From contig SUZJ01000001.1 in the NCBI GenBank assembly GCA_015059945.1, positions 1 to 64,000 on the forward strand: a stretch of 64,000 bases of DNA. The letters run 5' to 3'. Source of the DNA: Rikenellaceae bacterium (GTDB taxonomy: Bacteria > Bacteroidota > Bacteroidia > Bacteroidales > Rikenellaceae). Shown piece after piece: positions 54,497-58,410 of this stretch (position 1 is its first letter; the number at the start of each line of letters is the position of its first letter). The notes beneath the pieces were generated by a model. The model searched no databases. It had not been told where the DNA came from and saw nothing but the letters and a program-made list of their open reading frames with translations. A program made the position numbers and the translations under genes.

Positions 54497-54510
54497 TACA
54501 CTTTACACGC

Positions 54511-54540
54511 TCGGTGGGCCCTCTCGCGGGGGCCCACCGA
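54511..54540 (+). terminator. Terminator after leuS
   Basis: TCGGTGGGCCC pairs with GGGCCCACCGA across a short loop and is followed by TTTAT. It begins 15 bp after the stop. Confidence 0.8.
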
Positions 54541-54583
54541 TTTATAACACCCCATACACTCCCCCAAAAACCACAAGAAAACG

Positions 54584-55177
54584 ATGGATTTTGTTTCGCT
54601 ATTTCTGATTGCCGTAGGTCTCTCGATGGATGCCTTTTCGGTAGCCATTTGCAAGGGGCTCTCGATGCAGAGGGCCACCGCTGGGCGATGCTCGGTGGTG
54701 GGCTTGTGGTTTGGTGGCTTCCAGGCACTTATGCCTGTGGCGGGCTACTTTTTGGGTTACAACTTCCGCGATGCCATTGTGAGCGTAGACCACTGGATTG
54801 CCTTCGCGCTGCTGGCCCTGATTGGCGTGAATATGATACGCGAAGCGGTGAGCAAGGACAACGAGAACGAGGGGGCCACTTGCGGCTGCGGCTGTGGGCG
54901 CGAGAGCGAGGAACTCTCGACGCGTAAGATGTTCCCGATGGCGGTGGCCACGAGCATCGATGCACTGGCAGTGGGAGTGTCGTTTGCCTTCTTGAATGTG
55001 AATATCTGGACCTCGGCTGCTGCCATTGGCGCAACGACGTTTGTGCTGTCGTTTGTGGGCGTGAAGGTGGGCAACATCTTTGGTGCGAAGTATAAGTCTA
55101 AGGCCGAGCTTGCAGGCGGCACAATCCTCATACTCATTGGCCTAAAAATCCTCCTAGAACATCTATTAGAGGGCTAA
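54584..55177 (+). CDS. mntP: Manganese efflux pump MntP-like protein
   Basis: A 197-residue inner-membrane protein with six hydrophobic helices. The two internally related halves each carry a conserved Asp: D16 in GLSMDAFSVAI and D126 in ATSIDALAVGV. MntP exports Mn2+ to prevent toxicity. The central cytoplasmic loop (about 93-113) contains closely spaced cysteines, TCGCGCGRESEE, with C100, C102 and C104, which could bind a metal. In other species a Mn-sensing yybP-ykoY riboswitch controls mntP; I see none in the 87-bp leader. Confidence 0.88.
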   Translation: MDFVSLFLIAVGLSMDAFSVAICKGLSMQRATAGRCSVVGLWFGGFQALMPVAGYFLGYNFRDAIVSVDHWIAFALLALIGVNMIREAVSKDNENEGATCGCGCGRESEELSTRKMFPMAVATSIDALAVGVSFAFLNVNIWTSAAAIGATTFVLSFVGVKVGNIFGAKYKSKAELAGGTILILIGLKILLEHLLEG

Positions 55178-55223
55178 GCTGTCAATTTTCAATTTTCCAC
55201 TTTCAATTTTGCATTTTCCATTG

Positions 55224-55231
55224 TATCTTTG
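55224..55231 (+). promoter_or_regulatory. -7 box of dnaX
   Basis: TATCTTTG lies 31 bp before the dnaX ATG. The nearest upstream TTTG is 12 bp away in a CAATTTT repeat, so the -33 element is weak. Confidence 0.5.
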
Positions 55232-55247
55232 TGAGGTTATACCTCAC
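55231..55247. promoter_or_regulatory. Palindrome GTGAGGTTATACCTCAC over the predicted dnaX start site
   Basis: Perfect 7-bp arms with a TAT centre, starting on the last base of the -7 box, so it covers the likely transcription start. It is a candidate repressor site or 5' mRNA hairpin. Confidence 0.4.
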
Positions 55248-55261
55248 AAGCAAGTAACACA

Positions 55262-57067
55262 ATGGAGAACAACTTTATAGTTTCGGCACGCAAGTACCGC
55301 CCCGCAACTTTCGAGTCGGTGGTGGGGCAAGGCCACATCACCTCTACTCTAAAAAACGCTATCGCTCGCGGTCAGCTGGCTCACGCCTATCTGTTCTGCG
55401 GCCCCCGAGGTGTGGGCAAGACCACCTGCGCACGTATCTTCGCCAAGACAATCAACTGTCTGAACCCCAACGCCGAGGGCGACGCCTGTGGCGAGTGCGA
55501 GTCGTGCAAGAGCTTCAACGAGGGGCGCAGTTTCACCATCCACGAGCTCGATGCCGCATCGAACAACTCCGTTGAGAACATTCGCGACCTAACGGACCAG
55601 GTGAGGGTCCCACCCCAAGTAGGTCGCTACAGCGTCTACATCATCGATGAGGTACATATGCTCTCGCAGGCCGCCTTCAACGCCTTTCTGAAAACCCTCG
55701 AGGAGCCACCACAGCACGCCATATTCATTCTGGCCACCACTGAGAAGCACAAAATCATACCCACCATTCTGTCGCGTTGCCAAATCTACGACTTCAACCG
55801 CATACGCATCGAGGACACGGTTAGTTACTTGAAGAGCATCGCTGCCAAAGAGGGTGTAGAGTATGACGACGAGTCGTTGCACCTGATTGCGCGCAAGGCC
55901 GATGGTGGTATGAGGGATGCGCTGTCGATGTTCGACAAGGCGGTGTCGTTCTGCGAGGGGCGCCTGAGCTTCAAGGAGGTTGCCGCCACGCTAAACGTGC
56001 TCGACTATGACACCTACTTTGGCATAACCAACAACATACTGGCGGGCGACTACAAGAGCGCCCTGGTGACCTTTGACGAGGTACTCAAAAAGGGCTTCTC
56101 GGGCCAGACCTTTATGTCGGGCCTGGCGAGCCACTTCCGCGACCTGCTGATGTGCAAAGACCCCCAGACGTTGCCTCTGCTGGAGATTACCGGCTCGGTA
56201 TTGGAGCGCTATCGTCAGCAGAGTCAGGCTTGCGCCATCGACCTGCTCTTTGGTGGCATATCGCTGCTGAGTGCCCTCGATGGAGGTTTCCGCACCGCCA
56301 CCAACCAGCGCCTGCACGTCGAGCTGGGACTGATGAAATTGTGTGGCCTTGGTCAAAAAAAAAACTCTGACGTAGAGCCCTCGGCTGCCCCCACGCTGCC
56401 CCCTCTGACAAAGGAGGCACCCGCACCAGTGGCACAGCCACAACCAGTGCAGCAGCCACAACAACCTCAGGTACGGCAGCCCGTAGCACAGCCACAGCCC
56501 ACCGTTGCGGCGCAACAAATACCACAACCTCAACAGCTCAGGCAAGTTGTTGAGCAGTCGCAGCAACCCAGGCCCACCGCCACACCCCGACCAATGGCTC
56601 AGGCTACAACCGCAACGGCTCACAAGCCCCTATTTGGCGGCTCGATAAATGCAGTGTTGATGGGCCAGAAGCCCACCTCGGATGATGACGAGAACCCCCA
56701 GAACGAAGAGTTCAAGCCCGAGAGCGGTGCAAAGGTAGAGGCCAAGCGCGAGGCTTTTTTGGCCGAGCTGTACAACCTCAACCCACGCCTTGCCAATGCC
56801 CTCAGGAGTATGACCATCGAGGGTTTCACCATCAGGGCGTGTGTGATGACCGAGATGGTGAGGGATGAGTTGTTGCGCAACCGAGGAGAGATAAACAACA
56901 TTTTGCGCGAGGTGTGTGGCATAGAGGGCAGTATGGCATTTGAGATTGAGGTGGCCAGGAGCCGCGATGCCAAGCCCGTAAAGGCCGAAGACAAGTTGCG
57001 CTTCCTGGTTGGTCGCAACCCCGAGGTTACTAACCTCATTCAGGCCTTGGACCTCGATTTGAAATAA
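55262..57067 (+). CDS. dnaX: DNA polymerase III subunit gamma/tau
   Basis: 601 residues, the clamp-loader ATPase. Walker A is GPRGVGKT at 47-54, zinc ligands are C66, C76, C79 and C82, Walker B is IIDEVH at 127-132, and the sensor/SRC motif is SRC at 171-173. Clamp-loader domains I-III end near residue 365. A Pro/Gln/Ala-rich linker covers about 372-446. A C-terminal domain of about 470-601 would bind the polymerase and helicase (tau function). An A10 run at 56355-56364 lies exactly at the domain III/linker junction, and both shifted frames stop within a few codons (see findings). Confidence 0.96.
   Translation: MENNFIVSARKYRPATFESVVGQGHITSTLKNAIARGQLAHAYLFCGPRGVGKTTCARIFAKTINCLNPNAEGDACGECESCKSFNEGRSFTIHELDAASNNSVENIRDLTDQVRVPPQVGRYSVYIIDEVHMLSQAAFNAFLKTLEEPPQHAIFILATTEKHKIIPTILSRCQIYDFNRIRIEDTVSYLKSIAAKEGVEYDDESLHLIARKADGGMRDALSMFDKAVSFCEGRLSFKEVAATLNVLDYDTYFGITNNILAGDYKSALVTFDEVLKKGFSGQTFMSGLASHFRDLLMCKDPQTLPLLEITGSVLERYRQQSQACAIDLLFGGISLLSALDGGFRTATNQRLHVELGLMKLCGLGQKKNSDVEPSAAPTLPPLTKEAPAPVAQPQPVQQPQQPQVRQPVAQPQPTVAAQQIPQPQQLRQVVEQSQQPRPTATPRPMAQATTATAHKPLFGGSINAVLMGQKPTSDDDENPQNEEFKPESGAKVEAKREAFLAELYNLNPRLANALRSMTIEGFTIRACVMTEMVRDELLRNRGEINNILREVCGIEGSMAFEIEVARSRDAKPVKAEDKLRFLVGRNPEVTNLIQALDLDLK
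56355..56370 (+). promoter_or_regulatory. A10 slippery run and -1-frame stop in dnaX
   Basis: Codons CAA AAA AAA AAC (365-368) form an A10 tract. A -1 shift, or insertion of one A, reads K-L then TGA at 56368-56370, giving a 369-residue product. A +1 shift, or loss of one A, stops at TAG 56373-56375, giving 371 residues. Both products would keep domains I-III only, like gamma. Confidence 0.65.
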
Positions 57068-57117
57068 GTGAGAAAACAGACAAAATTATATAACACAAAC
57101 AAAAGCAGACAGGAAAG

Positions 57118-58410
57118 ATGAATTTCGTTGATGAGATGAGGTGGAGGGGTATGATCCACGATATGATGCCCGGCACCGAGGAACAGCTTAACAAAGAGAT
57201 GACAACGGCCTACTTGGGCATTGACCCCACGGCCGACTCGCTACATATTGGCCACCTGGTGGGTGTGATGATTCTGAAGCACCTCCAGCGTTGCGGCCAC
57301 AAACCTATCGCTCTGGTGGGCGGTGCAACTGGTATGATTGGCGACCCCTCGGGCAAGTCGCAGGAGCGCAACCTGCTCGATGAGGCCACCTTGCGCCACA
57401 ATCAGGAGGCCATTAAGGCTCAGCTCTCGAGGCTTATCGACTTCGACAGCGATGCCCCCAATGCCGCCGTTATGGTAAACAACTACGACTGGATGAAGGA
57501 CTTCTCGTTCTTGGAGTTCATCCGCGATATCGGCAAGCACATCACCGTAAACTATATGATGGCCAAAGACTCGGTCAAGAAGCGCTTTAATGGCGAGGGC
57601 GAGGGTATGTCGTTCACCGAGTTTACCTACCAGCTGGTGCAGGGCTACGACTTCTTCCACCTCTACGAGGCCTATGGCTGTAAGCTGCAGGTGGGCGGTA
57701 GCGACCAGTGGGGCAACATCACCACCGGCACCGAGCTCATCCGCCGCAAACTGGGCAAAGATGATGCTTATGCGCTGACCTGCCCCCTTATCAAAAAGGC
57801 CGACGGCACCAAGTTTGGCAAGACCGAGAGCGGCAACGTGTGGCTCGACGCCCGTTACACTTCGCCCTACAAGTTCTACCAGTTCTGGCTCAATGTGAGC
57901 GACGAGGATGCCAAACGCTACATCTGCATCTTCACCCTGCTCAACAAGCAGACCATCGACAACCTGATTGCCGAGCACGAAGAGGCTCCCCACGAGCGCA
58001 AACTCCAAAAACGTCTGGCTCAGGAGATTACCACAATGATTCACTCGGCCGAGGAGTACGAGAAGGCTGTTGCAGCCAGTGGCATACTGTTTGGTGCCAA
58101 CGCTGCCGAGGCCCTCAAAACCATTGACGAGCAGACTTTCTTGCAGGTATTCGAGGGTGTTCCACAGTACAAGATTTCGGCTGCCGAGTTGGCCGAGGGC
58201 GTTGATATGCTCAGCCTCTGCGCCGAGAAGTGCAACATCTTCCCCTCGAAGGGCGAGTTGCGCAAGCTGATTCAGGGTGGTGGCGTGTCGCTCAACAAGG
58301 AGAAGGTTGCCGACCCCTATATGGTCGTTAGCAGCGCTAACCTGATTGCCGGCAAGTATCTGCTTGTCCAGAAAGGCAAGAAGAACAACTACATTGTTAT
58401 TGCAGAATAA
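57118..58410 (+). CDS. tyrS: Tyrosyl-tRNA synthetase
   Basis: A 430-residue class Ic enzyme, dimeric, charging tRNA-Tyr. HIGH is at 43-46 (SLHIGHLVG). The KMSKS-class motif is KFGKT at 232-236, the TyrRS variant. An S4-like RNA-binding domain is at about 365-425 ([16 protein letters not shown]). Length fits the bacterial TyrRS of E. coli type (424). It is 50 bp after dnaX, possibly co-transcribed. Confidence 0.96.

Follow-up and report, generated by a model that had tools for sequence, protein, structure and literature searches.

A Conserved A10 Run at the Gamma/Tau Junction of dnaX in Bacteroidota: A Probable RNA-Polymerase Slippage Site

Introduction

How might a dnaX gene encoded in one uninterrupted frame provide both the full-length tau protein and the shorter gamma protein? 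The question is raised by a run of ten A residues in the dnaX of a Rikenellaceae bacterium (assembly GCA_015059945.1), located on a stretch of 64,000 nucleotides of contig SUZJ01000001.1, hereafter the window. The original prediction, made from these letters alone, held that slippage on the run yields a short gamma-like product, probably during transcription. Here, we compared the locus with its relatives across the family and the phylum, and these sequence comparisons lead us to consider it likely that the A10 is a conserved RNA-polymerase slippage site through which one gene would give both tau and gamma.

Materials and Methods

Relatives were sampled at several depths. The family draw comprised 61 genomes, 59 of them with a match, from which 58 loci were classed and 55 had enough downstream sequence, window included. 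The phylum draw comprised 178 genomes, 176 with a match; 148 loci were read among the matches listed and 144 were usable, the others being three alignments that were too short and one contig end. To these were added the best 80 of 593 named loci (77 usable, one of which duplicates a family locus) and an extra Bacteroidales set of 50 loci, made of the 30 best matches to locus L072 and of 20 fetched loci, 19 of which were picked for short open frames, such that this set shows existence and not frequency. Of the 333 pooled loci, 311 were put in frame classes and 22 were dropped for having no tau end on the contig, a stop distant from the run, or no run; in the dropped loci L129, L144, L398, L400, and L401, a run is present and the break is distant or doubtful. 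Defining the tau frame by the longest open reading frame was rejected, as it misfired in GC-rich genes, and a tau C-terminal profile was used instead. This profile was built from 207 sequences that include the tau end of the window, which therefore matches it by construction.

Results

The A10 Run Lies at the End of the Part Common to Tau and Gamma

The dnaX open reading frame is complete in the window and encodes 601 amino acids. Its features are as follows:

55262..57067, plus strand: dnaX, single 601-codon frame for full-length tau (open reading frame list; TIGR02397; Pfam clamp-loader ATPase and lid domains)
55262..56347, plus strand: clamp-loader domains I–III part, common to tau and the predicted gamma (PF13177, PF22608, PF12169)
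56355..56364, plus strand: A10 run, predicted RNA-polymerase slippage site (sequence; sole A10/T10 of the assembly inside an open reading frame; conserved)
56365..57064, plus strand: tau-only part, a Pro/Gln-rich linker and C-terminal domain absent from the predicted gamma (translation)
56368..56370, plus strand: TGA closing the −1 frame (one extra A; 369 aa; sequence and in-silico lengths)
56373..56375, plus strand: TAG closing the +1 frame (one A fewer; 370 aa; sequence and in-silico lengths)

The dnaX family model TIGR02397 matches with 428 bits, above its cut-off, and its match ends at base 56344, ten bases 5′ of the run. Pfam places PF13177 at residues 23–180, PF22608 at residues 188–233, and the domain III model PF12169 at residues 238–362, the latter below threshold (20.2 bits against a curated cut-off of 24.4), and residues 5–286 match E. 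coli gamma/tau structures. The run thus sits just 3′ of the domain III part, about 61% into the gene, which agrees with its original placement where domains I–III end. Open reading frames of 197 and 430 codons flank dnaX, which we take to encode an MntP-like membrane protein and a tyrosyl-tRNA synthetase.

Both the sequence and the list of open reading frames bear out the ten A residues in frame with the 601-codon gene, read as CAA AAA AAA AAC (QKKN), and the two stops are where they had been placed, the −1 stop 3 nt and the +1 stop 8 nt past the end of the run. In silico, an RNA with 11 A encodes 369 aa ending in QKKKL and an RNA with 9 A encodes 370 aa ending in QKKTLT. The product has 368 aa with 8 A and 371 aa with 12 A, and it reaches 601 aa with 10 A and 602 aa with 13 A. 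The short product of 369–371 residues announced at the outset therefore holds for 9, 11, and 12 A and has to be widened to 368–371 by the message with 8 A. If the polymerase slips on the A10, mRNAs of varied A number would be produced: those with 10 or 13 A would be translated into full-length tau, and translation of the others would run into a stop a few codons on, yielding the predicted gamma of 368–371 residues.

A Run of This Length Is Rare within Genes of the Assembly

Across the 1,807,802 bases (1.81 Mb) of the assembly, there are two runs of ten A or T, and the dnaX run is the only one within an open reading frame of at least 60 codons; runs of at least nine A or T number five. With the codon usage of the window (CAA for 0.189 of Gln, AAA for 0.430 of Lys), QKK would be written CAA AAA AAA with a chance of 0.035. 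Taken by itself, the 64-kb window is unremarkable in having two overlapping A9 matches: two or more also turned up in 23 of 100 dinucleotide shuffles. It is the genome-wide and comparative results, and not the window shuffles, that carry the weight against chance.

Two other tracts of the assembly may be mentioned in passing. The only other run of at least nine inside a long open reading frame is an A9 at G000:C12:1656-1664 (L303 around 1501), near the start of a 486-codon frame. The second A10/T10 of the genome is a T10 followed by a G9, at G000:C10:39704-39713 (L177 around 1501), in no open reading frame of at least 60 codons; since the T10 lies, by eye, directly 3′ of a 12-bp perfect inverted repeat, it reads as a terminator tract, apparently of an intrinsic terminator in which, unusually, one homopolymer follows another.

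The Run Is Conserved in Place and in Length

One check set for the original prediction was whether close relatives keep the run. An A9 or A10 is kept in all four usable congeners (the fifth stops at a contig edge), and 46 of the 55 family genes, window included, have a run of at least nine A at this position (38 A10, seven A9, and one A12), so that conservation stands within the genus and is incomplete further out, with 9 of the 55 lacking it. At the scale of the phylum draw, 103 of the 144 usable genes have the run and 41 do not, and among the best 80 of 593 named loci, it is present in 56 of the 77 usable ones.

The usable family genes without a run of at least nine at the junction are those of G011, G020, G021, G029, G031, G033, G034, G042, and G050; family genome G009 is likewise below nine, with a longest run of six. 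Over the 360 nt of the junction region, the congener locus L109 (G045) is identical to L011, which is labelled Tidjanibacter, a genus that NCBI's taxonomy places in Rikenellaceae.

We measured the longest A run at residues 351–405 in 325 pooled genes and found it to be below 9 in 96, 9 in 58, 10 in 150, 11 in 17, and 12 in four. The distribution is bimodal, with a gap at 8 (exactly 8 in only two genes) and a mode at 10; 229 of the 325 genes fall at 9–12, and only 10 have a run of 7 or 8. Windows of equal size elsewhere in the gene reach nine A in none of 975 cases upstream and in 4 of 645 downstream, and runs of T, G, or C at the junction of the 325 genes are at most 7 long.

The Frame of Tau Changes around a Constant Run

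The 311 classed loci comprise 156 direct genes with the run, as in the window, 90 direct genes without it, 57 with tau in the −1 frame, and eight with tau in the +1 frame. The latter two classes amount to 65 relatives in a two-ORF, or inverse, layout that is absent from the window, with the gamma stop in the DNA frame and tau elsewhere. The run is found in each of the three codon phases, and among direct genes the five-residue peptides that begin with it are of 77 kinds. Of 151 direct genes with the run, all 151 have a stop within 30 nt in the −1 frame and 138 have one in the +1 frame, against fractions of 0.44–0.50 at random anchors in the same genes; in 66 direct genes without the run, the corresponding fractions are 0.39 (−1) and 0.50 (+1). 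In the same way, the third frame is closed within 30 nt in 98% of 50 inverse genes (null 0.52), one of these 50 being L129, which was later dropped. The median distance from run to stop is 3 nt in the −1 frame and 11 nt in the +1 frame, a nearer −1 stop that either mechanism, polymerase or ribosome, would allow.

The inverse −1 class is robust. Its members are not misread direct A10 genes, since 46 of the 57 have exactly A10, which is also the mode of direct genes (95 of 156), and all nine loci of genus g27 in family f5 (completeness given as 100) are inverse with A10. The eight genes with tau in +1 comprise three with A10 (L083, L175, and L391), three with A11, and two with A12. The picked Bacteroidales set contributes six of these genes, and in the five with A11 or A12, the length may be an error or have changed recently. 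On a single-gene FastTree phylogeny of the gamma part, we counted at least 29 changes of frame organization among run-bearing genes and 33 changes between run and no run, counts that are inflated by tree error and by length errors in draft genomes. Such frame switching would be explained if slippage makes all frames, because a one-A change in the DNA would then be nearly neutral. The site would in this sense be frame-neutral: 9–12 A are kept while codon phase, peptide, and DNA-frame product change between relatives.

Two of the 22 dropped loci, L086 and L397, have no A run, and their tau C-terminal end follows the gamma stop in the +1 frame, an arrangement that may be a sequence error.

Discussion

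Polymerase or Ribosome

That the run is kept in most sampled relatives and that stops close both other frames make polymerase stutter likely. Stops in every unused frame suggest a message of variable length, as a −1 ribosomal shift would put no constraint on the +1 frame, and the occurrence of tau in −1 or +1 among relatives points to transcriptional realignment under a view set out in PMC3711429, where a shift direction that varies within one function is taken as its sign. The main alternative, programmed −1 ribosomal frameshifting to gamma on A_AAA_AAA or A_AAA_AAC in the manner of E. coli, seems unlikely to us. It can draw on the fact that A_AAA_AAA always lies within the run and that ribosomes can slip on this heptamer too, as they can slide on iterated AAA (PMC4363877), on the nearer −1 stop, and on the 57 of 65 inverse genes that need a −1 shift; against it, +1-frame stops are enriched as well, eight genes need a +1 shift, and a ribosomal site would need no more than A7, but runs of 7–8 are few beside the 229 of at least nine. 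The signals that accompany such frameshifting are also near background: SD-like words precede the run in 28 of 205 genes (0.14, vs. 0.11 in the background), no AGGA, GGAG, or GAGG is seen by eye over the 20 bases that precede the run in the window, and the hairpin z-score over the 60 nt 3′ of the run averages −0.37 against −0.28 at control sites (+0.43 in the window itself). An Rfam search over 54500–57500 gave no match up to E = 1. The original preference for transcriptional slippage, which cited the lack of a clear stimulatory stem or Shine–Dalgarno, is supported by these near-background signals along with tau in −1 or +1 and with stops closing the two remaining frames. The E. coli dnaX frameshift signal contains a Shine–Dalgarno sequence (PMC3711429), and Bacteroidia ribosomes do not recognize Shine–Dalgarno sequences (PMC9976891), which counts against a ribosomal −1 shift and is likely a reason why the polymerase rather than the ribosome would be used.

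An addition of polymerase and ribosomal slippage on the same run is less probable still; poly-A can be slippery for both (PMC3711429 and PMC4363877), the search for Shine–Dalgarno and hairpin stimulators of ribosomal frameshifting found none, and sequence alone cannot tell the two contributions apart. A phase-variable DNA tract, on which replication slippage would turn tau on and off between cells, appears very improbable: run length does vary from 9 to 12 among species, but dnaX belongs to the core replication genes, direct and inverse −1 genes alike have their mode at A10, and all species with inverse genes would have to have been caught with tau off. As for a run devoid of any programmed function, arising by chance from a lysine pair and A-rich codons in an unconstrained linker, the variability of the linker and the unexceptional count in the 64-kb window speak for it, but the position of the run, the length gap at 8, the stops in both frames, and the 65 inverse genes leave it barely credible.

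Comparison with Known dnaX Systems

Polymerase slippage in dnaX has a precedent in Thermus thermophilus (Larsen 2000, via PMC1088944, PMC3711429, and PMC5009743), and we compare the two as these sources describe it. In both, dnaX has a single frame whose gamma part ends at a sense-strand run of at least nine A, stops lie nearby in both other frames, and gamma is predicted from off-length messages. Separate tRNA-Lys for AAA and AAG have been proposed as a correlate of Thermus slippage (PMC5009743), and in the window's genome a tRNA family search likewise identified both kinds of tRNA-Lys gene, UUU and CUU (anticodons ttt and ctt). An anticodon-arm pattern search for tRNA-Lys had been discarded in its favor after returning 10 matches and no tRNA. 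The two systems differ in that the run is A10 here and A9 there, slippage here being predicted from sequence, and in that it directly follows domain III at about 61% of the gene here, against seven-eighths of the gene in Thermus (PMC1088944).

A second precedent is the GeneTack cluster of two-ORF dnaX described in PMC3711429, with 17 genes, nine of which have 10 A, all shifting −1, and for which transcriptional realignment was predicted. The window resembles it by a poly-A, often A10, at the gamma/tau junction and by the predicted mechanism, and departs from it in that the DNA frame encodes gamma there and tau, in one 601-codon frame, here. This set of 17 may include Bacteroidota species, and our +1 relatives, as read from sequence, would add the direction lacking among them. 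With E. coli dnaX and its −1 programmed ribosomal frameshifting, the window shares the same two predicted products and a −1 stop directly after the site, but it has neither A_AAA_AAG, its run ending in AAA AAC, nor an upstream SD-like stimulator or 3′ hairpin. On these grounds, the window's dnaX can be assigned, with strong comparative support, to the known kind of dnaX predicted to use slippage. The titles, abstract openings, and passages covered by our search contained no report of phylum-wide dnaX slippage in Bacteroidota or of UAG readthrough in dnaX.

A UAG Codon in Place of the Run in One Bacteroidales Genus

Outside the window, loci L072 and L077 have no A run and have a TAG at residue 367/368, with tau continuing in the same frame. 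Together with all eight drawn genomes of genus g307 (family f116), they form a set of 10 genes carrying a UAG-type dnaX element, each with an in-frame UAG, AUW GCN AGR, and a hairpin:

L072:2788-2826, plus strand: UAG-type dnaX element
L077:3596-3634, plus strand: UAG-type dnaX element
L404:2611-2649, plus strand: UAG-type dnaX element
L412:2614-2652, plus strand: UAG-type dnaX element
L415:2599-2637, plus strand: UAG-type dnaX element
L417:2599-2637, plus strand: UAG-type dnaX element
L421:2662-2700, plus strand: UAG-type dnaX element
L407:1450-1488, minus strand: UAG-type dnaX element
L411:1447-1485, minus strand: UAG-type dnaX element
L422:1447-1485, minus strand: UAG-type dnaX element

In all 10, the UAG lies at residue 367–389 and is followed by AUW GCN AGR, A runs at the junction are at most 5 long, 189–226 sense codons separate the UAG from the next stop, and the tail matches the tau C-terminal profile (31–71 bits); third codon positions vary most in the five pairs of tails compared. 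The hairpin begins 10 nt 3′ of the UAG, and a stem of at least three pairs starts from element nucleotide 14 in 10 of 10 genes, against at most four in shuffles and at most five at other offsets. A sequence model of the element, built from the same 10 sequences and scored on 150 of 669–1,785 first-look candidates per genome, has one match per genome in all 10 at E below 1e-5, none in G000, G626, and G644, and one weak match (E = 0.33) in G629. RF1 is encoded in the three UAG-type genomes checked, and the UAG should therefore act as a stop. Three of the 10 tails have no ATG, GTG, or TTG in their first 60 codons, which speaks against ordinary re-initiation. We propose these genes as candidates for programmed UAG readthrough; their tau may otherwise be made by re-initiation on AUU or AUA after the stop, or via a suppressor tRNA.

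Taken with the frame classes, this leads to a broader view, to which we give an even chance of being correct, namely that in Bacteroidota the output of gamma and tau would be under selection while the decoding drifts, most often through an A run with tau in any frame and, in one genus, through a UAG readthrough. If so, much of a major phylum would rely on RNA-polymerase stutter for a core replication gene, and 36 of the 144 phylum-draw genes, about a quarter, would be without full-length tau unless stutter occurs. It would also follow that split dnaX genes are not by default pseudogenes or sequencing errors, and that the role of gamma could be tested by comparing lineages in which the run was kept, lost, or swapped. 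Frame-neutral drift across a phylum and a swap to UAG would come as a surprise to specialists.

An Rfam search over seven UAG-type loci gave 10 matches, all under gathering scores and taken as chance. Among the sister genera, nine loci read in g321 and g319 are in one frame with no run at the junction, and four loci of g328 have an A9 or A10.
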